Below the pieces are notes generated by a model that saw nothing but the letters and a program-made list of their open reading frames with translations, had not been told where the DNA came from and ran no database searches. Made by a program: the position numbers and the translations under genes. From NCBI GenBank assembly GCA_903926465.1, contig CAIYJE010000195.1, forward strand, positions 1 to 64,000: DNA of 64,000 bases, in the 5' to 3' direction. The DNA comes from an uncultured Planctomycetales bacterium. GTDB lineage: Bacteria > Planctomycetota > Planctomycetia > Isosphaerales > Isosphaeraceae. Positions 40,837 through 53,050 of the stretch are shown here, piece by piece; the first letter of the stretch is position 1, and each line of letters opens with the position of its first letter.

Positions 40837-41156
40837 GTGCGTTCCTGGGCCTGGGGCTTGAGGAATCTCTTGAGCGGTGCTGTATAGTTCTTGGGACGCC
40901 ACAGTTGCCAACGCACCAGGATCCGGCGGATACTCACACCTGCTTGAACGACATCAACGTCAATGCGAGAAGCCCTTCCGCAGGAAGCGTGTCGGAAGAA
41001 GGGCTTTGCTACGATTGGCCACGGTGCCAGCTTCCACAGCGCAGACCACCGACGAGGTGGGTCCTGAAAGTCCGGTGGCCAGACAACGCCCCACCCGGCA
41101 CTTTGAGAAGCAACATCCAGAAAATTGCCACGCCTTGAGGGATGGAGGAACCGGCC
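40837..41156. other. Intergenic region
   Basis: These 320 bases lie upstream of the subtilase-like gene. No gene or named site was recognised. The ribosome-binding site GGAGGAA (41144-41150) precedes the chosen start. Confidence 0.4.
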
Positions 41157-44100
41157 ATGCGTTTCAAGAGTGCGCCACGCGGGTTATGGGCCAACCTGCC
41201 TCCGGCCAATCGTCGTTCGCAATGTTCCAGGCGTTTGCGCTGCCGGCTGGAGCACCTGGAAGACCGCGCCCTGCTCACGATCAACGGCCAGGTGATGGAT
41301 GCCCTGGGAAGCCTGGTGCCCGTGGACACGCGGGTGGCCGGCAAACTTGGCGATAGCCTGGCCTACCTGGCGGCCGACTACCAGATGTGGGCCGGTAGTG
41401 CCGGCCAGTTGAACCACAACCCGACAACCGCTTACCTGCCGTCGAGTGCCCAGCCTCTGCTCAACCTGATACGGTTTGGGACCGGCACGGTGGGGGTGGT
41501 GGCCATTGCCACGGGGGTCCAATCCGACAGGCTGGCGCTGGAAATGGCCGCGTTGGGGGCCCAGGTCACCGGCAGCTACGGGGTGATGGTCTCGGCGATG
41601 GTGCCTGATGCGGCCCTAGCTGGGCTTGCGAACCTGGCCGATCTCCGGTTTGCCAGGCCCGAGTATTTGCCCGTGGTCAGCGCCGGCAAGGTCGAGAGTC
41701 AGGCGGTGGCCGCCCAGAAGGCCGACATTGGCGGCACGACGTTTGGCGTGGATGGGTCTGGTCTGACCATTGGCTTGCTGTCTGATAGCTTCAACAACAA
41801 GAGCGGGTATAGCGCCGATGTGGCCAGCGGCGACCTGCCGCCCGGCGTGCAGGTGCTAACCGACCTCAGCAGCGGCGGCACCGATGAAGGCCGCGCCATG
41901 GCCCAGTTGGTGCATGACGTGGCACCGGCCAGCAAGCTGGCGTTCGCCTCGGCATTTCTGGGTGAAGCGGCGTTTGCCCAGGGAATTATCAACCTGGCCA
42001 AACCGGTGACCCAGGGGGGCGCGGGAGCCCAGGTGATTGCCGATGACGTGTTTTACTTCGATGAGCCGATTTTCCAGGACGGCGTGGTGGCCCAGGCGGT
42101 GAACACCGCGGCCAACACCTATGGCGCAGCCTACTTCTCATCGGCCGGCAACCAGGCCAACCATGCTTTCCAAACGGCCTGGAATGGCACCACGGCCAGC
42201 CCTGCCGGCATGCCCGCCAACAGCATGGTCCAGGATTTTGGTGGCGCCACCGGCATTTTCTTGCCGATCAGCGGGAACCTGACCACCACCTTCCAGTGGG
42301 ATTCGCCCTACGCCTCGGCCGGCAACGGCAGCCCAGGCTCCAGTAACCAGCTTGACCTCTATTTTTACGGGGCCGACAAGACAACCCTGCTTGGAACCAT
42401 CACCGATAACACGATTGGCGCGGATCCCACCAAGATTTTCCAGGCCAACTTCGGGACCCAGGCGTACATGGTGGTTCGACTGGCGGCCGGGAATGCACCC
42501 ACCACGTTCAAGTACATCAATGTTGGCGGCGGCACCATGCCCTATAACGCGGGGGCATCGTTTGGCCATAACCAGGCGGCCGGCGGCGCGGGGGTGGCGG
42601 CCTCGGCCTATAACGGCACCCCCGCCTACGGCAACAGTCCACCTGCGGCCGATAGCTACACGTCTCTGGGGGGCACCGCCATCTTGTTTGACCCGGCCGG
42701 CAACCGGCTGGCCACCCCCGACCTGCGGCCACAGCCCCGGTTCACCGGCGTGGATGGAATTGATACCACCTTCTTCGGCAGTGATTCCGATGGCAACGGC
42801 CTGCCCAACTTCTACGGTACCTCGGCGGCAGCCCCCGACGTGGCTGGCGTGGCCGCCCTGTTGAAGCAGGCGGTGCCATCGCTCACCCCCGCGCAGATCT
42901 ACGCGGCCCTGGCAGCCACCGCCATTGACATGAACACACCTGGATATGATTACCGCACGGGCGCGGGGCTGATTCAGGCCCATGCCGCCCTGGCCAACGT
43001 TACCGCCAACTCCATTACCGGCAAGGTCTTCCAAGATACCAATGGGGACGGCATCCGGAACGATGGCGATACCGCGATCATCGGTCAGACCGTGTTTCTG
43101 GATACCAACAGCAACGGAACGATTGACTCTGGAACCACCGCCGCGCTGACGTCCGCCGATGTCCCCAAGATCATTCCCGACGGCTCAACCGGCAACCCCT
43201 CGCGAGTCACCTCGGCACTGGCCGTGAGTGACGTGCCCGGGCGGGTCACCAAGGTCACCGTGACCCTGAGCATCAATCACGCCAGAGACTCCGATCTTTC
43301 GGTGAACCTGATCAGTCCATCAGGCATGCGCATCCCCCTGTTCAGCAATGTGGGCGGCGCCAGCCCTCTGGGGTTCAGCAACACGGTTCTGGACGACGCC
43401 GCGGCCACCCCCATCCGAAACGGGACCGCGCCGTTCACCGGCACGTTCCATCCCCTGGTGGCCTTGGCCGGCCTGATCGGTGAAAACCCCAACGGCACCT
43501 GGCAACTGGAAGCTCGTGATCACTTCAGCGGCAATACCGGCTCCATCCAGGCCTGGTCGCTGGTCATCCAATACGCGGAAACCAGTACCACCACCAACGC
43601 CGCTGGAAACTACAGCTTCACCGCGGCTCCGCCGAGTTCGTACTACGGAACTTACTCGGTGCGCACCCTGGTATCCGCGCCGGCGGTCCTCTCTTTGCCC
43701 CGCTCACCGTATGACCTGGACCTGACCAATACCGCCCCGCTCACCGGCAAAGACTTTGGCCTCACCCTGCCCTTGCTCACCATCACCGCCAACGACGTGA
43801 CTCGCGTCTACGGCGCACCTGACCCAAGCCTGGGCGTGACCTACTCTGGATTCCTCGGCACCGACACGCCCAGCGTGCTGGGTGGCACCCTGAACCTGGT
43901 TGACACCCAGGCCGATCCCACCACGACCGTGGGACTCTATGCCGGCGCCATCCTCGGTTCCGGACAGACCTCTTCCAGTTACCGGCTCAACTACGTCCCG
44001 GGCAACTTGACCGTTCTGGCGGCCCCCACCATGACGAATCTGGTGGCTTCGGCCAATCCCGCCTGGTTCGGTGACCCGGTGACATTCACCACCACCGTCA

Positions 44101-46679
44101 TCGCCAGTGCGCCAAGCACAGCTACACCCAGCGGTGCCGTTCAGTTTCTGGTGGATGGTCAAAACTTTGGCGCACCGGTCACACTCACGGGCGGCACCGC
44201 CAGCCTGACCGTTTCCGATCTGAGCGTAGGCTCCCACACCGTCACGGCCGCCTACTCAGCCGATCCCAACTTTGTCTCAAGCGTCTCCACCAACCTGACG
44301 CAAACGATCAATGACGCCCTGGCCGCCCCCACCGTTGCCACCCAGCCGGCCAATCTCACCGTGAACGCCGGCGAGACCGCCAGTTTCCACGCCACCGCCA
44401 CGGGTAACCCCGCCCCCACCATCCAGTGGATGGTCAGCAGCGATAACGGCCAGACCTGGACCAGCATCCCAGGCGCCAGCGCCACCACTTACAGCTTCAC
44501 CACGGCCGCCAGCGACAATGGTTCGCGCTATCAGGCGGTGTTCACCAACAGCGTGGGCACCGCCACCACCAGCGCCGCCACGCTCACTGTCCATGTGCCA
44601 TTACCAACCGGTTCCGCCAGTTTCTTACTGCAGGACGCGCTCACCCAGGGGACCTGGAAAACCGCCTATGGGGCCGATGGGTTCAACATCAGCCAGGACG
44701 GCAGCGCCAATAATCCGAGTATTCCCGCCTACGCCAGCCTGAGCATCACCGACGCCTCGGGAACCACCTGGAAACAGGCCACCACCGACTCCAGGGCGTT
44801 GCAAAAATCCAGTCCCACCGCCACCGATCGGATTGCAGGCACCTGGTACAGTTCCAGTAGCTTCTCCATCGACGTGAAGATCAAGGACGGCAAGACGCAC
44901 CAGCTCACGCTGTACGCGCTCGATTGGGATAGTACCAGTCGTACCGAGACGATTCAGGCGATAGACGATGCCACGGGCGCTGTGCTCGATACCCAGACCC
45001 TGGCCAGTTTCCATCAAGGGGTTTATCTGGCCTGGAACATCCAGGGGAATATCACGTTCAAGGTGACCAACACCGGCTCCAGCCCCAACGCGGTGGTGAG
45101 CGGGCTCTTCTTCGGGGCCGCGCCGATCATCGCTGGACAGGCCACCTTCCTGAAACAGGATATAACCACCCAGGGGAACTGGAAGGCCGCGTATGGCGCT
45201 GAGGGGTTTGACCTGAGCCAGGACGGCAGTGGCAACAACCCCAGTCTTCCCAGCTACGCCAGCCTGTCCTTCAGCACGGCCAAGACTACCACCTGGAGTT
45301 CATCAACCACCGACGTCCGCGCCCTCCAGAAAGCCGCACTTAGTGCCACCGACCGCATCGCCGGCGCCTGGTACAACAACAACGCTTTCGCGATCGATCT
45401 CAAGACCAGGGACGGCAAGACGCACCAGGTGGCCCTTTACGCCATAGACTGGGACAGCAACACCCGCGCCCAGACCGTTCAGGTGATTGACGATGCCACG
45501 GGCGCTGTGCTCGATACCCAGTCCCTGGCCGGTTTCCACGGTGGAACCTACCTGGTCTGGAATGTTCAGGGCAATGTGACCTTCAAGGTCACCAACACGG
45601 GCCCCAGCTCCAACGCCGTGCTCAGTGGCCTCTTCTTCGGCAGCGCGCCCGGTGGTGCCAGCCTGGTCAAGCAAGAGACAACCACGAAAGGGAACTGGAA
45701 GCCTTTCTATGGCGCCGATGGATTCAACATCAGCCAGGACGGCAGTGCCAATAACCCGAGTATTCCCGGCTATGCGGATGTCAGCTTCAGCACGGCCAAG
45801 AATACGGTCTGGACGCCCTCAACGGCCGACATTCGCGGCCTCCAGAAGGCAGCCCCCAACTCCACCGACCGCCTGGCTGGCGGCTGGTACAACGGCTCCA
45901 GCTTCTCCATGGACGTCAAGATCAACGATGGTAAGATCCATCAGCTTGGCCTCTACGCCGTGGACTGGGATGGCAACACCCGCGCCGAGATGATTCAGGT
46001 GATTGACGATGCCACGGGCACGGTGCTCGATACCCAGACCCTGGCCGGTTTCCATGAGGGGGTTTATCTGGCCTGGAACATCCAGGGGAACGTCACGTTC
46101 AAGGTGACGAACACCGGCCCGTCCAACGCCGTACTCAGTGGCCTCTTCTTTGGGGGTGCTCCGCTCGTGGCCGGCCAGGCCACTTTTGTGACTCAAGACA
46201 CGGCCACCCAGGGAACCTGGAAAGGTGTTTATGGCGCGGATGGATTCAACATCAGCCAAGATAGGAGCGCGGAGAACCCCAGCTTTCCGGGCTACGCCAC
46301 CGTGAACCTGAGCAACGCCGCGGGCTTCGTCTGGAACGCGTCCACCACCGACTTCCGTGCGCTACAAAAAGTAGCCGCGAACGCCCCCGACCGAATTGCG
46401 GGCACCTGGTACAACGCCGACACAATCTCAACCACGATCAGCATCAACGACGGCAAAACTCACCAGCTTGCCCTCTACGCGGTGGACTGGGACAACTCGG
46501 CCCGGGTTGAGATGGTGCAGGTGATCGACACCGCCACGGGCAGCGTGCTCGATAGCCGCGCGCTGGCCAGCTTCCGGAACGGCGTGTACCTGGTCTGGAA
46601 CATCGCCGGCAGCGTGACCGTGAAGGTGATCAATACCGGTTCGAGCAACGCCGTGCTCAGCGGCCTGTTCTGGGGCTGA
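41157..46679 (+). CDS. Giant secreted subtilase-like repeat protein
   Basis: This 1840-residue protein starts with RLEHLEDRALL (about 30-40), a common planctomycete motif at the front of large secreted proteins. A subtilase-like domain spans about 185-615, with Asp210 (GLLSDSF), SAGN (oxyanion Asn) and Ser556 (GTSAAAPDVAG). Where HGTH is expected the sequence reads DEGRAM, so Glu244 takes the His place. Then come an SdrD-B-like domain (about 618-865) with a proprotein-convertase P domain inserted (about 671-804), an MBG-like domain (871-955), two Ig-like domains (957-1148) and four repeats of about 170 residues. Start: GGAGGAA six bases before 41157 is better placed than for 41142. It is probably extracellular. 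Confidence 0.85.
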   Translation: MRFKSAPRGLWANLPPANRRSQCSRRLRCRLEHLEDRALLTINGQVMDALGSLVPVDTRVAGKLGDSLAYLAADYQMWAGSAGQLNHNPTTAYLPSSAQPLLNLIRFGTGTVGVVAIATGVQSDRLALEMAALGAQVTGSYGVMVSAMVPDAALAGLANLADLRFARPEYLPVVSAGKVESQAVAAQKADIGGTTFGVDGSGLTIGLLSDSFNNKSGYSADVASGDLPPGVQVLTDLSSGGTDEGRAMAQLVHDVAPASKLAFASAFLGEAAFAQGIINLAKPVTQGGAGAQVIADDVFYFDEPIFQDGVVAQAVNTAANTYGAAYFSSAGNQANHAFQTAWNGTTASPAGMPANSMVQDFGGATGIFLPISGNLTTTFQWDSPYASAGNGSPGSSNQLDLYFYGADKTTLLGTITDNTIGADPTKIFQANFGTQAYMVVRLAAGNAPTTFKYINVGGGTMPYNAGASFGHNQAAGGAGVAASAYNGTPAYGNSPPAADSYTSLGGTAILFDPAGNRLATPDLRPQPRFTGVDGIDTTFFGSDSDGNGLPNFYGTSAAAPDVAGVAALLKQAVPSLTPAQIYAALAATAIDMNTPGYDYRTGAGLIQAHAALANVTANSITGKVFQDTNGDGIRNDGDTAIIGQTVFLDTNSNGTIDSGTTAALTSADVPKIIPDGSTGNPSRVTSALAVSDVPGRVTKVTVTLSINHARDSDLSVNLISPSGMRIPLFSNVGGASPLGFSNTVLDDAAATPIRNGTAPFTGTFHPLVALAGLIGENPNGTWQLEARDHFSGNTGSIQAWSLVIQYAETSTTTNAAGNYSFTAAPPSSYYGTYSVRTLVSAPAVLSLPRSPYDLDLTNTAPLTGKDFGLTLPLLTITANDVTRVYGAPDPSLGVTYSGFLGTDTPSVLGGTLNLVDTQADPTTTVGLYAGAILGSGQTSSSYRLNYVPGNLTVLAAPTMTNLVASANPAWFGDPVTFTTTVIASAPSTATPSGAVQFLVDGQNFGAPVTLTGGTASLTVSDLSVGSHTVTAAYSADPNFVSSVSTNLTQTINDALAAPTVATQPANLTVNAGETASFHATATGNPAPTIQWMVSSDNGQTWTSIPGASATTYSFTTAASDNGSRYQAVFTNSVGTATTSAATLTVHVPLPTGSASFLLQDALTQGTWKTAYGADGFNISQDGSANNPSIPAYASLSITDASGTTWKQATTDSRALQKSSPTATDRIAGTWYSSSSFSIDVKIKDGKTHQLTLYALDWDSTSRTETIQAIDDATGAVLDTQTLASFHQGVYLAWNIQGNITFKVTNTGSSPNAVVSGLFFGAAPIIAGQATFLKQDITTQGNWKAAYGAEGFDLSQDGSGNNPSLPSYASLSFSTAKTTTWSSSTTDVRALQKAALSATDRIAGAWYNNNAFAIDLKTRDGKTHQVALYAIDWDSNTRAQTVQVIDDATGAVLDTQSLAGFHGGTYLVWNVQGNVTFKVTNTGPSSNAVLSGLFFGSAPGGASLVKQETTTKGNWKPFYGADGFNISQDGSANNPSIPGYADVSFSTAKNTVWTPSTADIRGLQKAAPNSTDRLAGGWYNGSSFSMDVKINDGKIHQLGLYAVDWDGNTRAEMIQVIDDATGTVLDTQTLAGFHEGVYLAWNIQGNVTFKVTNTGPSNAVLSGLFFGGAPLVAGQATFVTQDTATQGTWKGVYGADGFNISQDRSAENPSFPGYATVNLSNAAGFVWNASTTDFRALQKVAANAPDRIAGTWYNADTISTTISINDGKTHQLALYAVDWDNSARVEMVQVIDTATGSVLDSRALASFRNGVYLVWNIAGSVTVKVINTGSSNAVLSGLFWG
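44616..46676 (+). repeat. Four tandem ~515-bp coding repeats
   Basis: These lie within the giant secreted protein. Units start near 44616, 45136, 45655 and 46174. Each begins with a Gln-Asp/Glu and GTWK or GNWK followed by YGADGF or YGAEGF, continues through DGKTHQL, YAVDWD and VIDDATG, and ends in SGLFFG or SGLFWG. The spacing is regular at about 515-520 bases, and the sequences are diverged at the DNA level. Confidence 0.9.
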
Positions 46680-46920: not shown

Positions 46921-49900
46921 TTAATGCAAAAACGGCCCCAGGATGACCAGCAAAGTGTCATAAAAGCCGTAGAGCAGAGTGGCCAGCAGGGCGAGCACGG
47001 GCGCCACGTACGTCATCAGCTTGGACAAGAACTCCAGGTTCCAGATCGAGCCGCCGAACGGCGTCTTCTTGACCCGACTGATGAGCGGGTCTTTTTGCAT
47101 GCCCACGAGCACCAGAATGATCGGCACGGTGGACGCAAGGACGACCACCATCATCCACTGAGAGAGCTGGCCAGTGGGCTGGAACGGGTAACTGTTACAA
47201 CTGGCCATCAAGAGCAGCGCGGTCACCATGACCAGCACCACCATGTTCCAGACCAGGTCCAGCACGCGGTCGGCATGGCGGACCAGGTGAAAGGTCAGGA
47301 AGTCCTCGGCCAGGCGCACCGCCTTCTCGCCCCGGCTGAGTTCAGCGTCCGAGCCACTGGCAACGCCTGCCTGGCGGGTGGCGGTGGTCAGCAGGTCGGC
47401 CTCGTGCTGCTCCCACTGCTGCCAGAGCGGCCGGAGCGCAGGGACCATGGCATGGCAAAGCTCCAGGTTGGAGAAGCCGTTTTTCCCCTGTCGGCCCAGT
47501 GTCAGGTTCTGGAGCATTTGCTTGGCCTGAACGAGCAGTGGGTCGGTCGGATGGTCGGGGTCGGGCTCTGCGCGGCTCTCTTCGATCGCCTTGTCCAGCA
47601 CACGCCTGAAGTGCTGAATCTGCGGGTTCACGTTGGTCTCATCATCACCAATCAACGCCTGCAAGTACCCGCCAAATCGCGCGGCCAGGGGGCGTGGTAG
47701 CCGGTCGATCGCCTGGCCAAACGGCATGTCTAACAACGCCAGGGCGAACCGCTGGTAACGCCGCCACATTTCCAGCAACCAGGCCGATTCCAGCAACAAC
47801 AGCACGAATAACACCAGTACCGCCACCGGTAGCGTGATCCTGGACCACAGGTCGTCGGGTTCGATCGTAGACATTCGCAGTACCACAAACGCGGTCACCT
47901 GCACCAGTAGCACCAACATCAACACCAGCACCGCCTGGCTACGCTTGTGTGAGCGCTTGGAGCCGGCCTCGTGCGGCTGCCTGAACGTTTTGACGCCGGC
48001 AAGTAGCCGGTTCAGACCGGGCAGCCGATTGAGCCGTGAGACCAACACCAGCGCCAGGACCCAGACCAACAGCGTGGATTGCAACAGCGGCCGACCCAGC
48101 CACTGGAGATACCCCTCAAGCCGTGGATCTCCTACGCCCACCAACCAGTCTTGCCCACCCCTCCACAACCCGCCCAGCAAGGCGAGCAGGCCCAGCCCAA
48201 ACAGCAACGAACCGACACCACGCAGCCAGGGTAGCGCACCACCCAGCAAATCGTTCTTCCGGTCCGAAAGTTCACGCTCCAACTCCAGATCAACATCCTC
48301 ACGCGCACGCCGGCCAGGCTCTGCCAGCGGCCAGGCGTGCACCAGATCATGATGCACGCCATGACTGCGCTGGTACGCCACGAAGAAGCAAACCAGGGCA
48401 ATAAGCGCGAGCACCAACGGTAACAACGGCGTGGTACCGCTCGCCCAGCGCAAGTAACGCGACCAGGCCAGGTCGGCGTCGTCTTTACCAACCAGCGGAA
48501 ACGCAGCCACCGTGGAACTTGCATCCGGTTGCTTCGCTTCGGCCTTCAGGCGTGCACGCTCATGCAAGAGCGAGCCCATCGCCAGCCGACCGGCTGAGTC
48601 GCGGAACGAGCCGGCTACACCGCGGCCAAGCTCTGCACCCTGTGGGCTGCCCGCCTCGCCTTGCACCTGCGCCTGCGCCGGCCGTTCCAGCATCAGCGGC
48701 TCGAACCCCTTGTACCCCACCACGCTTAGCCAGATGGGCGAGACCGTGTCCTGACCGCCACTGCCCGGCCATGACGCCGAGATGAACCCCGACCCCAGAA
48801 AATCGGCCAGGTCTTGGTCCGGCTCAGACTCGATCAAATGCACGAGCGCCGCATTGTAAAGCGCAAACGACGCGTTCATCGGCAGCGTTTGCACACGCAG
48901 GTCTGGCAATGACGCACCGTCTAGCTTCGCCCCCTGCGCGCCCGGCATGGGCGACCAGTCAATATCCTGGTCCTTGAGCCAGAGCGGGTAAGACGAAGCC
49001 ACAATCACACCCCGCAACGACGAGATATGCTCGTGGTGCGTCAGCGCTTCGTCGTTACTGAGCGTGGCCAGTTGCACGTTCGGGCAATGCTCGCGGAAGA
49101 AACTCGCCAGAAATAGATAATCACGCACGTCGGTGGCGCTGAAGATGGCGAACCGGATCCCCCGGCGATTGATGTCTTGCACCATCCGCAGCAACCGCAG
49201 CTCATCGTAAGCGGCCATCATCCCAGGCGATTCAGACGCCAAGAACTCTGGGGAATCGACCCCGTCGTTAGAGAACTGCAACCGCTCAGACGGTTTCACC
49301 TTCAGGTCCTGGTCGCCCAGCTTCACGGTGGCCTGGTCCGCCTGCTCCTGGCTCTGGTACCGCTTCCGGATTTCGGAGATGTGCGCGGGGAATGTGTAAC
49401 GATAGATGGCGAAATGTTTCTCCAGGCTCTTGAGGTTCTGGGTTTTGTCCGCGGCGGGCGATGATTCGGCAGACGCCGTGGGCGGGGCTGCCAACCGCTT
49501 GCTTGAGAGCCGCCTGGACTTCACGCTTCCCTTGGCCTTGAACGCTTTACTGGAGGCTTCACCAAACCCGGTCGTCTCCTCCGTCAGGTAGGCCAGGCCA
49601 TCTCCACCCACCAGCGGCTTGATGGTGATCAGGTATTCCAGGAGCGCGCGGTTGAGTTCTGGCGAGGAGTCTGTGGTGGCGCGGAAGGTGACCGCGCCTG
49701 GGACCAGGGTGTCGAACTGCTCCATCATTCGGCCGTGATCAATGGCCACCGCAGCACCATTGACCCAGGAGATCAGCGCCGAGCCAGACTCCAGATCCGG
49801 CAGGCCGTCTGGATTCTGCTGCTTGAACTCGGCCAGCCAGGCCGAGAGCGAGCGCACCAGCGACGGGCCGGAGCCGGTGAAGTTGGGGCCAACCACCCGC

Positions 49901-50760
49901 ACTGGCGGGCCGGTTTTCTCTGGCTGCAGCTTCCAGGCGCGGATTGCGATATCCAGGCAGTTGTGCAGCATGACCGTGTTCACACCCCTGACCGGCGTTT
50001 CCGCCACCAGCAGCAGCACGATCAGGTCATTGGAATCGGTCAGGCCGGTCGTGGTGCTAGGCTCGGCGTTGGGGTCTGGCGGGCGCAGCTTGCGCAACAA
50101 GATCAGCCCGGGCGCCCTGAGGTCGTCGTCTTCAGCGCTGTTATAAACCATCTCGCCGGTCTCGGTGCGCTTCTTGGCCTTGGCGGTGTCGGCATTGGTG
50201 CGCGTGCGGTGCCAGTGATCGAGGTCGTGCGAGTCCAGCACATAACCACCGCGCCGGAACGCCAGCAGCATGGACGTGAGTGCCTGGTCATAGCGGTAGG
50301 CCGAACCGGAGCGCACGGGGTCTGGGACGAGCGCGACCATGAACCGCATCCGGTCTTGACCATCGGCGCCACTGAGCAGGTACTCAACATGCCGCTTGGC
50401 GCTGCTGAGCAGGCGTTTCCCCTGGTCCGGGGTTCGCGCCAATCGTGGGGCCTGGAACCGGTCCAGCACTTCGAGCATGGGTAGCAGCTTGTCGTCGTCC
50501 TGAGCGGCCCAGTGCTGCTGAACCAGCTTGGCACCATTGAAGGCCTGCGGATCCTCGCCCGAGCTATCGCTACTCTCGGCCGCCGCGGCCGCAGTTGCGG
50601 ACCCAGGGGCAGACCTGGGCGCCGAGGCTCCCTGCTTGCCAGGCATGGCCACCACGCCCATCATCGCCATGGCCGATAACACCAGCGCCGAGAGCGACGC
50701 CTTGCCACCGCCACCGCCACTACCGCCGCCGCCGCTGGTACCCGATTCCTCGCTGCTCAT
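46921..50760 (-). CDS. Large multi-spanning membrane protein of unknown function
   Basis: I do not recognise this 1279-residue protein. It opens with a Ser/Gly-rich stretch, then one hydrophobic helix (ASLSALVLSAMAMMGVVAM). About 720 residues of probably extracytoplasmic, alpha/beta sequence follow, with Rossmann-like strands (NDLIVLLLVAETPVRGV, PVRVVGPNFTGSGPSLVRSL, IRFAIFSATDVRDYLFLASFF, LRGVIVASSYPLW) that recall type-1 periplasmic-binding folds. The C-terminal ~480 residues hold about nine helices (LVLALIALVCFFVAY, LLVWVLALVLVSR, VVLVMVTALLLMA) and a cytoplasmic helical block (ALLDMPFGQAIDRLPRP). Start: GGAAAGGG six bases before 50760. A ligand-sensing or transport role is conceivable, but nothing shows it. 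Confidence 0.75.
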   Translation of the reverse strand: MSSEESGTSGGGGSGGGGGKASLSALVLSAMAMMGVVAMPGKQGASAPRSAPGSATAAAAAESSDSSGEDPQAFNGAKLVQQHWAAQDDDKLLPMLEVLDRFQAPRLARTPDQGKRLLSSAKRHVEYLLSGADGQDRMRFMVALVPDPVRSGSAYRYDQALTSMLLAFRRGGYVLDSHDLDHWHRTRTNADTAKAKKRTETGEMVYNSAEDDDLRAPGLILLRKLRPPDPNAEPSTTTGLTDSNDLIVLLLVAETPVRGVNTVMLHNCLDIAIRAWKLQPEKTGPPVRVVGPNFTGSGPSLVRSLSAWLAEFKQQNPDGLPDLESGSALISWVNGAAVAIDHGRMMEQFDTLVPGAVTFRATTDSSPELNRALLEYLITIKPLVGGDGLAYLTEETTGFGEASSKAFKAKGSVKSRRLSSKRLAAPPTASAESSPAADKTQNLKSLEKHFAIYRYTFPAHISEIRKRYQSQEQADQATVKLGDQDLKVKPSERLQFSNDGVDSPEFLASESPGMMAAYDELRLLRMVQDINRRGIRFAIFSATDVRDYLFLASFFREHCPNVQLATLSNDEALTHHEHISSLRGVIVASSYPLWLKDQDIDWSPMPGAQGAKLDGASLPDLRVQTLPMNASFALYNAALVHLIESEPDQDLADFLGSGFISASWPGSGGQDTVSPIWLSVVGYKGFEPLMLERPAQAQVQGEAGSPQGAELGRGVAGSFRDSAGRLAMGSLLHERARLKAEAKQPDASSTVAAFPLVGKDDADLAWSRYLRWASGTTPLLPLVLALIALVCFFVAYQRSHGVHHDLVHAWPLAEPGRRAREDVDLELERELSDRKNDLLGGALPWLRGVGSLLFGLGLLALLGGLWRGGQDWLVGVGDPRLEGYLQWLGRPLLQSTLLVWVLALVLVSRLNRLPGLNRLLAGVKTFRQPHEAGSKRSHKRSQAVLVLMLVLLVQVTAFVVLRMSTIEPDDLWSRITLPVAVLVLFVLLLLESAWLLEMWRRYQRFALALLDMPFGQAIDRLPRPLAARFGGYLQALIGDDETNVNPQIQHFRRVLDKAIEESRAEPDPDHPTDPLLVQAKQMLQNLTLGRQGKNGFSNLELCHAMVPALRPLWQQWEQHEADLLTTATRQAGVASGSDAELSRGEKAVRLAEDFLTFHLVRHADRVLDLVWNMVVLVMVTALLLMASCNSYPFQPTGQLSQWMMVVVLASTVPIILVLVGMQKDPLISRVKKTPFGGSIWNLEFLSKLMTYVAPVLALLATLLYGFYDTLLVILGPFLH

Positions 50761-51418
50761 CGCCGACCCTTTCCCACGCCAGCACTGGAACGACCTGAGC
50801 ACCTAGCATTCAGGAAAACCGGGGTCTGTCAATGCAGAGCGAGCGCTTGCCGTGAACGCATGCCTAGAACGAGATCCGTGGCGTGGCAGTTTGGGGAAAC
50901 CAGGGAAATGGACGGAATGGACCCGATGGACGACGCCTTTTCAGGAATCCTTTCTCTTGCCCAGCACGGCTTGGCTTTGAATAGACAACCGCCGGGGGTT
51001 TCCTCGAACAGGAAATGCCCGGCGGCTCAGATTCTCAGCTCTCCCCTAAAAGCTCACGTGCCTTCCTCTGAAAAAAACCAAGGCTATTTCCACGGTTATG
51101 GAATTCAAGTGAATGCCGATCTTGATTTCAGCCATAGCTGTGGCCTGGTAGAACGATATTCATGGATTTGGCAGGCGTGGGAAGCGGTGTCTGGATCTCA
51201 GAACCAATGGAAATGCCGCGCCGTCCGATTTGCAGCCTGCTGCTTTTTCTGGCGACTTCCGTCGAAGCAGAGGCCCTGAAAGAGGCGGCCTCTGAGTCCG
51301 AAGTCTTGTTTAAAAAAGATGTCGCACTTACTCAACATTTCCGGAACCAGCAGCTTTGGTATTCCGGCATCTTTGCAACCGTCTCCCCTGTTCTCTTCAT
51401 GCGCTTTTCCGGGGCCGT
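50761..51418. other. Intergenic region with repeat copy B
   Basis: About 660 bases lie between the large membrane protein gene (minus, starting here) and the end of the GH-like gene (minus). They hold hairpin-repeat copy B at 50905-50936. A plus-strand frame at 51162-51518 has a signal-peptide-like start but overlaps the next gene and is not supported. Confidence 0.4.
50905..50936. repeat. TGGACGGAATGGAC-type repeat, copy B (left arm only)
   Basis: GAAATGGACGGAATGGACCC followed by GATGGACGACGCC gives three tandem ATGGAC units, as in the left arm of copy A. No inverse-complement arm was found within the next 150 bases, so this copy appears partial. Confidence 0.5.
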
Positions 51419-53050
51419 TCACGGCTCGATACCGGTCAAGTCCCGCACCGCCTGCCACTTGGGGGTATCCAGGTTGACGATATCCTCGCTCAGGCCCCAG
51501 CAGCCGAACCGGCTGTAGGTTGAGCAGTGGGAGAAGATCATGTACAGGTCGCCACCGCGTTCGAACCAGTTGCCGCGGGCATCGTGCAGTAACAGTTCGC
51601 GCATCCGGGGGCTGCGGTTGGCCAGAATCCGGTTGGCCACATTGTCGGTCTTGCCGCCGCCCACATCGGGGCCCACCTCGTACTGGCAGTGCTTCAGGCC
51701 GTGCTGATCGGCAATCGCCTGGATTTCGGTCCGGAACTTGAGGTTGTCATCGCTGCTGGCGCGCATGGCGTCAATGAGCTGGTCGGGCGAGGCGTTCAGG
51801 CCGGCCTTCTCGATGTTGAAGTAGGCCGCGCCGGCGATGCCGTAAAAATGATCGGCGGGCGGTCCGTAGGTCTTGGCCACCCAGTCCAGCACCTCACCGT
51901 AATAGGGGCCCGGAAAGATCACCCACGAGGCATAGATGGGCCGAACCCGGCGCGCCCCGGCTGGCCCAAACGTGTTGCGAAACGTCTGGCCAATCTTCAC
52001 CACCCGCTGGGCATGCCTGCGCCTGGCCCAGGTTTCTTCATCGCTCGAACCATCGGCGTTCAGCAGGCTGCCACCCTGTTTCACCGCGTCAATGGCCGCC
52101 AGCTTGTTGTAGATGTACTGGGGGAACCCAAAGTTCCAGACCTCGTTGGAGTGCTCGATGTAGACCGCCAGATTGGAGTCCAGTTTTTCATGCAGAAACC
52201 GGGCCAGCTCGGCCACATACGCATCGGTGGCCGCCACCGGCACGTTGATCCAGAGGTCTTTGTGGGTCTGGTTGGCCAGCGCCACCAGGTATTCCCAGGC
52301 CACGCCGTAGGTGGTACCCGTGCTGACCTGAGTGGCATCCTCTGGTAGACGACGGGCCGACCACTCCAGGGCATGGTGTCCGGCATCCCCGTAAAAACCA
52401 GGCTGGTGGTTGGTGTCTAGCCAGTCCATGGCCCGGAGCACGGCAAACGGCTTCAGCGATTTCAGGAACTCCCGTGTGAAGATTTCCTGGGTCTCCAGAG
52501 CATAGCCAGGACGTAACACGCGTAAGGTGGTGATCCCCGTGCCCAGGGCACTTTGTGGAGTTTTTTTGGAGTCCAGGAACGAGACAACCAGAATTCCACT
52601 TGCTTGGCCCACCACAATCTGGCCAGTGGTGGTATTGGAGTTGGCATTGTAGTGCACGTTTTCCAATCGGCAGCCTGGCCCTTCGCTAATCGTGAGCTCG
52701 GCTTGCCCCAGGAACGAGAACTGGTAGACGCCGCTCCAGTCGGGCTGGAAGGCCTGAGGGTCGTCGATGGGCGGGGCCCAGGCAAACGCCGGCCGGATAT
52801 CGAAGAGGACGGTGCTGGCATCCGAGGTGGGCCAGCCTGCCTGATCGATGGGGGCCGGCTCACCGGTGCCTGGCTTGGTCCAGGGACGCAAGGTTTTCGC
52901 CAGATCAACAAACGGGCGCGAGCGGGCGCCGTCGCCCAGGCCATCGAGTTCCACACCCAACCGGCTGGCGACCGGAGTTTGGGCCGAGACATCATCCTGA
53001 ACAAAAACCACCAGAACCAGGCAAACCAGGGAAAAACGGCACCAGGCCAT
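51419..53050 (-). CDS. Secreted glycoside-hydrolase-like (clan A type) protein
   Basis: This 543-residue protein has a signal peptide (MAWCRFSLVCLVLVVFVQDDVSA). A TIM-barrel-like region includes LWINVPVAATDAYVAELARFLHEKL and VYIEHSNEVWNFGFPQY, where the NE of SNEVWN fits the acid/base position of clan GH-A glycosidases. A later Glu (CQYEVGPDVGGG) is a candidate nucleophile. The N-terminal ~170 residues form a beta-rich region (VYQFSFLGQAELTISEG, QIVVGQASGILVVSFLD). Family members are annotated 'cellulose-binding domain-containing protein', but activity is not proved. It is probably periplasmic or extracellular. Confidence 0.7.
   Translation of the reverse strand: MAWCRFSLVCLVLVVFVQDDVSAQTPVASRLGVELDGLGDGARSRPFVDLAKTLRPWTKPGTGEPAPIDQAGWPTSDASTVLFDIRPAFAWAPPIDDPQAFQPDWSGVYQFSFLGQAELTISEGPGCRLENVHYNANSNTTTGQIVVGQASGILVVSFLDSKKTPQSALGTGITTLRVLRPGYALETQEIFTREFLKSLKPFAVLRAMDWLDTNHQPGFYGDAGHHALEWSARRLPEDATQVSTGTTYGVAWEYLVALANQTHKDLWINVPVAATDAYVAELARFLHEKLDSNLAVYIEHSNEVWNFGFPQYIYNKLAAIDAVKQGGSLLNADGSSDEETWARRRHAQRVVKIGQTFRNTFGPAGARRVRPIYASWVIFPGPYYGEVLDWVAKTYGPPADHFYGIAGAAYFNIEKAGLNASPDQLIDAMRASSDDNLKFRTEIQAIADQHGLKHCQYEVGPDVGGGKTDNVANRILANRSPRMRELLLHDARGNWFERGGDLYMIFSHCSTYSRFGCWGLSEDIVNLDTPKWQAVRDLTGIEP

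Follow-up and report, generated by a model that had tools for sequence, protein, structure and literature searches.

What role might a 1279-residue membrane protein play when it is predicted to hold a large domain outside the cell and a polytopic block in the membrane, and when its gene stands alone? The protein (P0001) is encoded in the window, by which we mean the whole 64,000-nucleotide stretch of an uncultured Planctomycetales contig analyzed here, by a complete open reading frame on the reverse strand at positions 46921-50760; all P0001 features given below lie on this strand. The frame opens with an ATG at 50760, and its longest reading begins at a GTG at 50802, 14 codons upstream. The GC content at the three codon positions is 0.66/0.45/0.79, which is the expected coding pattern in a window of 61% GC overall, and homologues align over the whole length, which argues against a chance frame. 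The codon-position GC and the full-length homologues therefore establish the open reading frame as a genuine gene, as the initial annotation of a 1279-residue membrane protein had presumed. No Rfam family was found in the window.

Hydropathy divides the chain into one N-terminal helix, approximately 740 residues predicted to be extracytoplasmic, and eight C-terminal helices. The first helix spans residues 21-39 (50644-50700), and the others lie near residues 777-795, 848-866, 892-913, 943-961, 975-993, 1166-1184, 1203-1221 and 1245-1273, giving nine in total. The initial annotation was thus correct in describing a single N-terminal helix and a polytopic C-terminal block, but its count of about nine C-terminal helices has to be lowered to eight. 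The assignment of the eight-helix membrane block to residues ~777-1267 (46960-48432) is based on hydropathy, a positive-inside charge pattern and a low-confidence helical model. Across 15 homologues, the mean number of Lys plus Arg residues is 6.3, 7.1, 5.1 and 3.4 in the predicted inside loops versus 3.1, 0.7, 0.4 and 1.0 in the predicted outside loops. Because the inside loops are richer in Lys and Arg, the large domain likely lies outside and residues 994-1165 inside. This helical stretch (47266-47781), which joins the fifth and sixth C-terminal helices and is predicted to be cytosolic, carries a conserved W999, a conserved P1013 and an LPxxxAFDRLP motif in the alignment.

What fold does the large outer domain adopt? 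An AlphaFold2 model covering residues 64-770, for which the alignment input was eight sequences, has a mean pLDDT of 59.5, with a core at about 75-90 and long disordered stretches. A Foldseek search with this model retrieved 48 PDB chains at E <= 0.001 (best E 1.2e-7), and the top matches are type I binding proteins and class C receptor ectodomains, including those of CaSR and T1R. The best VIA-align match is the Thermotoga maritima LivK structure 3td9 (Z 17.5 over 323 residues, 3.8 Å, 10% identity), and all fifty rows score Z above 14, nearly all of them type I binding proteins. According to the predicted structure, residues ~136-700 (48661-50355) adopt the extracytoplasmic type I periplasmic-binding fold of LivK and the class C receptors. 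The initial annotation had proposed a periplasmic-binding-like region with Rossmann-like strands; the fold match of the predicted structure supports the former, and the strands lie within the predicted fold.

The likeness to the known type I periplasmic-binding proteins of the Peripla_BP_6 type (LivK/LivJ, AmiC, UrtA; Z 15-17.5 over about 300-340 residues) is one of predicted fold. The P0001 domain is larger, contains insertions, forms part of a nine-helix membrane protein, has no detectable sequence similarity to them and has no ABC genes found alongside. The Peripla_BP_6 profile matches neither P0001 nor 11 aligned family members, and an hhalign comparison of the family with 26 LivK-like proteins from related genomes was not significant (E 0.089), with a short stretch aligned in plausible register. 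There being no sequence signal for kinship with LivK-like proteins, the fold assignment is founded on the predicted structure. In a separate observation, Peripla_BP_6 occurs in open frames of ~800-870 residues (L138, G000:C168 11753-12775; L142; L144; L146; L153), the window genome included, where it is possibly fused to another domain.

The best-conserved columns of the family alignment read GPxFSGS, SGxA, LxESxTGYG, ATDxRD, LRGxxVASxYP and YNA, and their order appears to be that of the ligand-contacting loops in LivJ. The first corresponds in P0001 to GPNFTGS at residues 291-297 (49870-49890), a candidate ligand loop by its position. LTEETTGFG at residues 392-400 (49561-49587) represents LxESxTGYG, TDVRD at residues 543-547 (49120-49134) represents ATDxRD and has a homologous GSDxYD in a more distant family, and SSYP at residues 589-592 (48985-48996) ends the LRGxxVAS(T/S)YP motif. 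A low-complexity insertion of low pLDDT at residues ~403-450 (49411-49554) is present in the alignment only in P0001. P0001 keeps most of the conserved motifs but differs at several positions that hardly vary in the family (H182 for W, A662 for Y, S674 for P and W887 for R), and it may therefore respond to another ligand, or have another output, than its relatives.

The C-terminal half was less tractable. Residues 690-1279 gave a weak model (mean pLDDT 58.5), no Foldseek match reached E 0.001, and all VIA-align rows score Z <=9.9, within the chance range for helical models; these rows comprise designed bundles, long ABC exporter helices, TolQ and similar low scorers. Of the two halves for which a fold search had been recommended, the periplasmic half thus matches the type I binding fold, but the C-terminal half has no usable match. 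Since this search was uninformative, we do not claim a new fold for the membrane block, which may serve as a relay, a channel or a permease.

Does P0001 belong to a characterized family? Searches of Pfam, NCBIfam, PADLOC and PDB sequences with P0001 gave no significant match, nor did Pfam and PDB searches with an 11-row family alignment or PADLOC models applied to P0001 and five relatives; the NCBIfam SLATT domain model NF033634 scores 10.6 bits, below its cut-off of 41. No whole-chain match to a characterized family and no transporter, kinase, cyclase or defence family signature was found in these libraries, and descriptions of the architecture were absent from the open-licence papers searched. 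These results agree with the initial annotation, which recognized no output domain and considered the protein a strong candidate for undescribed biology. The protein has homologues and is not a one-off: on the basis of sequence comparison, P0001 is one of a family of large bacterial membrane proteins that has yet to be named.

The window genome holds one copy, and homologues occur in 11 of 58 other related genomes, some with two to three copies. Full-length homologues are ~20-30% identical to P0001, the closest relative reaching 39% over the N-terminal half; one full-length homologue is that of Aquisphaera insulae JC669 (L077 8923-12756). Further members are found elsewhere in Planctomycetota and in metagenome-assembled genomes labelled Proteobacteria and Candidatus Binataceae, one of which has two copies; the scan of genome contigs that detected these metagenome-assembled genomes used a six-row alignment, and a scan with the P0001 sequence alone found no match. 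The distribution that the initial annotation wished to see charted is patchy among related genomes and, by these labels, extends beyond the phylum. A tree of the periplasmic domain places P0001 as sister to the homologues of genomes G026 and G028 with support of 1.0. One homologue (L063 8197-11689, G061) is read in two overlapping frames, probably owing to a frameshift or sequencing error. No relatives were found in viral contigs, and none in plasmids apart from one short fragment in Methylosinus plasmid pMSC49b (L082 8899-9357), an open reading frame that matches the N-terminal part of the more distant family and lies beside a gene for a 2110-residue S8 peptidase.

The proteins of this second family, roughly 900-1600 residues long and found elsewhere in the phylum, match the P0001-family profile weakly. 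Its own profile detects members in 18 of 391 other phylum genomes and recovers P0001 at E 1e-4. Profile-profile comparison of the periplasmic domains gives a probability of 98.3% in local and 99.6% in global mode (E 1e-14 to 7e-24), by which measure the two domains are homologous. The distant proteins (for example L072 369-3698 and L067 7724-11035) resemble P0001 in having one helix, a large domain and a polytopic block, and motifs similar to those of the P0001 family recur in them; they also carry motifs of their own, WQDPF, FFTTDLDAR and GISIWPTE. Homology of the two membrane blocks was suggested by eye and is unsupported by hhalign (E 0.18).

If P0001 senses a ligand, to what does it report? 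No partner gene common to most family loci was found. In the window the gene stands alone: its downstream neighbour is a convergent S8 peptidase gene (41142-46679), and the nearest same-strand gene upstream lies more than 600 bp away (ending at 51419). That peptidase, of 1845 residues, contains P-domain, Ig-like and MBG domains; read by eye, its C-terminal part also shows about four repeats that resemble one another, each some 130-170 residues long and unmatched in Pfam. The upstream gene (51419-53050, reverse strand) encodes a 543-residue protein, also with no Pfam match, in which HSNEVWNFGF gives the impression of a glycoside hydrolase. The initial annotation had reasoned from a single gene that one chain may combine sensing with response. 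The gene is indeed isolated in the window, but in the sister clade (G026 and G028) a same-strand gene for a separate, patatin-like phospholipase follows the homologue within tens of bases, and a second protein may therefore carry the response. The sister-clade patatin matches PF01734 at E 6.8e-26, and BLAST puts the G026 and G028 patatins at 62% identity.

Both patatin genes (L031 12305-13609 and L032 5222-6628) lie directly downstream of the receptor-like gene, and their products contain GxSxG and DGG motifs. The G026 homologue is broken by an insertion (L031 8700-10150) that has a perfect terminal inverted repeat of 16 bp and, on the reverse strand, an open reading frame resembling an IS transposase, possibly of the ISAzo13 family; the downstream patatin is intact. 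A third homologue, in G029, is followed by a truncated patatin of another subfamily and then by DUF2278 and PLD-like genes (L036 11112-14217). Same-strand patatins within 500 bp number 3, versus 0.003 expected; this linkage is far from chance, with the qualification that the test was selected once the first cases were already known and that G026 and G028 share ancestry. Orthologues of the G026/G028 patatin were found in none of the other genomes among the 59. Pfam detects no patatin in the window genome, nor does a remnant of one follow the P0001 gene.

The union of a flytrap domain with a polytopic membrane block is textbook receptor design in animals, and we know of no described bacterial counterpart. 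P0001 shares with the class C GPCRs (CaSR, T1R, mGlu) a flytrap ectodomain, at the level of predicted fold, and its union with a polytopic membrane block in one chain. It differs in that eight helices, not seven, follow the domain, in its extra N-terminal helix and 170-residue cytosolic insert, and in lacking sequence similarity; neither P0001 nor the 11 family members match 7tm_3 in Pfam, and the comparison is one of analogy only. We hypothesize that P0001 is a stand-alone Venus-flytrap-type membrane receptor, a reading to which we assign an even chance. Its single N-terminal helix, together with the eight at the C-terminus, would anchor the flytrap domain on the outside of the cytoplasmic membrane, where a small ligand would bind in the cleft and shift the relation of the two lobes. 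Closure of the cleft would then be relayed inward through the C-terminal helices and the cytosolic helical stretch of 170 residues. The signal would reach, in the sister clade, the patatin-like lipid hydrolase encoded alongside, assuming that control runs in this direction; in the window organism, its receiver would lie elsewhere or in the membrane block itself. The fold match, the conserved motifs, the charge pattern, the patatin linkage and the absence of transport, kinase, cyclase or defence family matches speak for a receptor, and the missing sequence-profile link to binding proteins, the weak model of the C-terminal half, the lack of a partner common to most loci and the absence of patatin from the window genome speak against it.

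An alternative hypothesis is that P0001 is a one-chain transporter or ligand-gated channel, with the flytrap as its tethered substrate-binding domain and a pore or permease made up of the eight helices. Their number suffices for this, type I binding proteins usually feed transporters, and some ABC systems are known to have fused substrate-binding domains. However, no LivHM-type permease or other transporter family is matched by P0001 in Pfam and NCBIfam or by the 11 members in Pfam, and a Pfam search of the eight nearby window ORFs found no ABC permease or ATPase, which sets the locus apart from a LivHM-type ABC importer. Moreover, conservation in the membrane block falls mainly on Trp, Pro, Ser and Tyr, not on charged residues within helices. 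We consider a transporter or channel unlikely, if worth serious attention. It is still less probable that the fold serves protein contact rather than small-ligand binding, such that P0001 would be an envelope scaffold or regulator acting as LpoA does with a peptidoglycan synthase. The lack of sequence similarity to ligand binders and of a fixed partner gene would suit such a role, but the best-conserved columns fall, judging from motif order, in the loops where ligand-binding members contact their ligand.

The neighbourhoods of more distant relatives raise another hypothesis, that P0001 does the sensing in a conflict or cell-death system with varying hydrolase effectors (patatin, caspase, DUF900, PLD-like). 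Apart from the patatin linkage and the PLD-like and DUF2278 genes by G029, this draws on neighbours of the distant family: a caspase-DUF7379 protein and a metallophosphatase encoded in line behind the relative in G125 (L169 3047-6973), two DUF900 hydrolases next to G287, a papain-DUF900 protein next to G391 and, upstream of G400, a SIR2_2 protein. DUF900 is rare in these genomes, with 8 matches in 31, and 3 of the matches lie close by. Most loci lack such neighbours, however, the effector families were picked after being seen, and P0001 has no PADLOC match, all of which leaves this reading very improbable. A caspase partnership was dropped, since 1 case was seen versus 0.13 expected, which is not above chance.

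The receptor reading may also be stated more broadly, as a bacterial superfamily of one-chain flytrap receptors that resembles class C but was built independently, senses an extracytoplasmic ligand and switches on patatins or other hydrolases at the membrane; in this wider form we regard it as a long shot. Judged from the modelled fold, P0001 probably works like a Venus-flytrap receptor, is placed in no named family and has a membrane block that the libraries searched do not recognize. Two sequence families absent from those libraries would thus combine a flytrap domain and a polytopic block in one chain, and the phospholipase gene beside one subgroup makes the output directly testable. Even if P0001 proves to be a transporter, it would represent a large uncatalogued membrane family.
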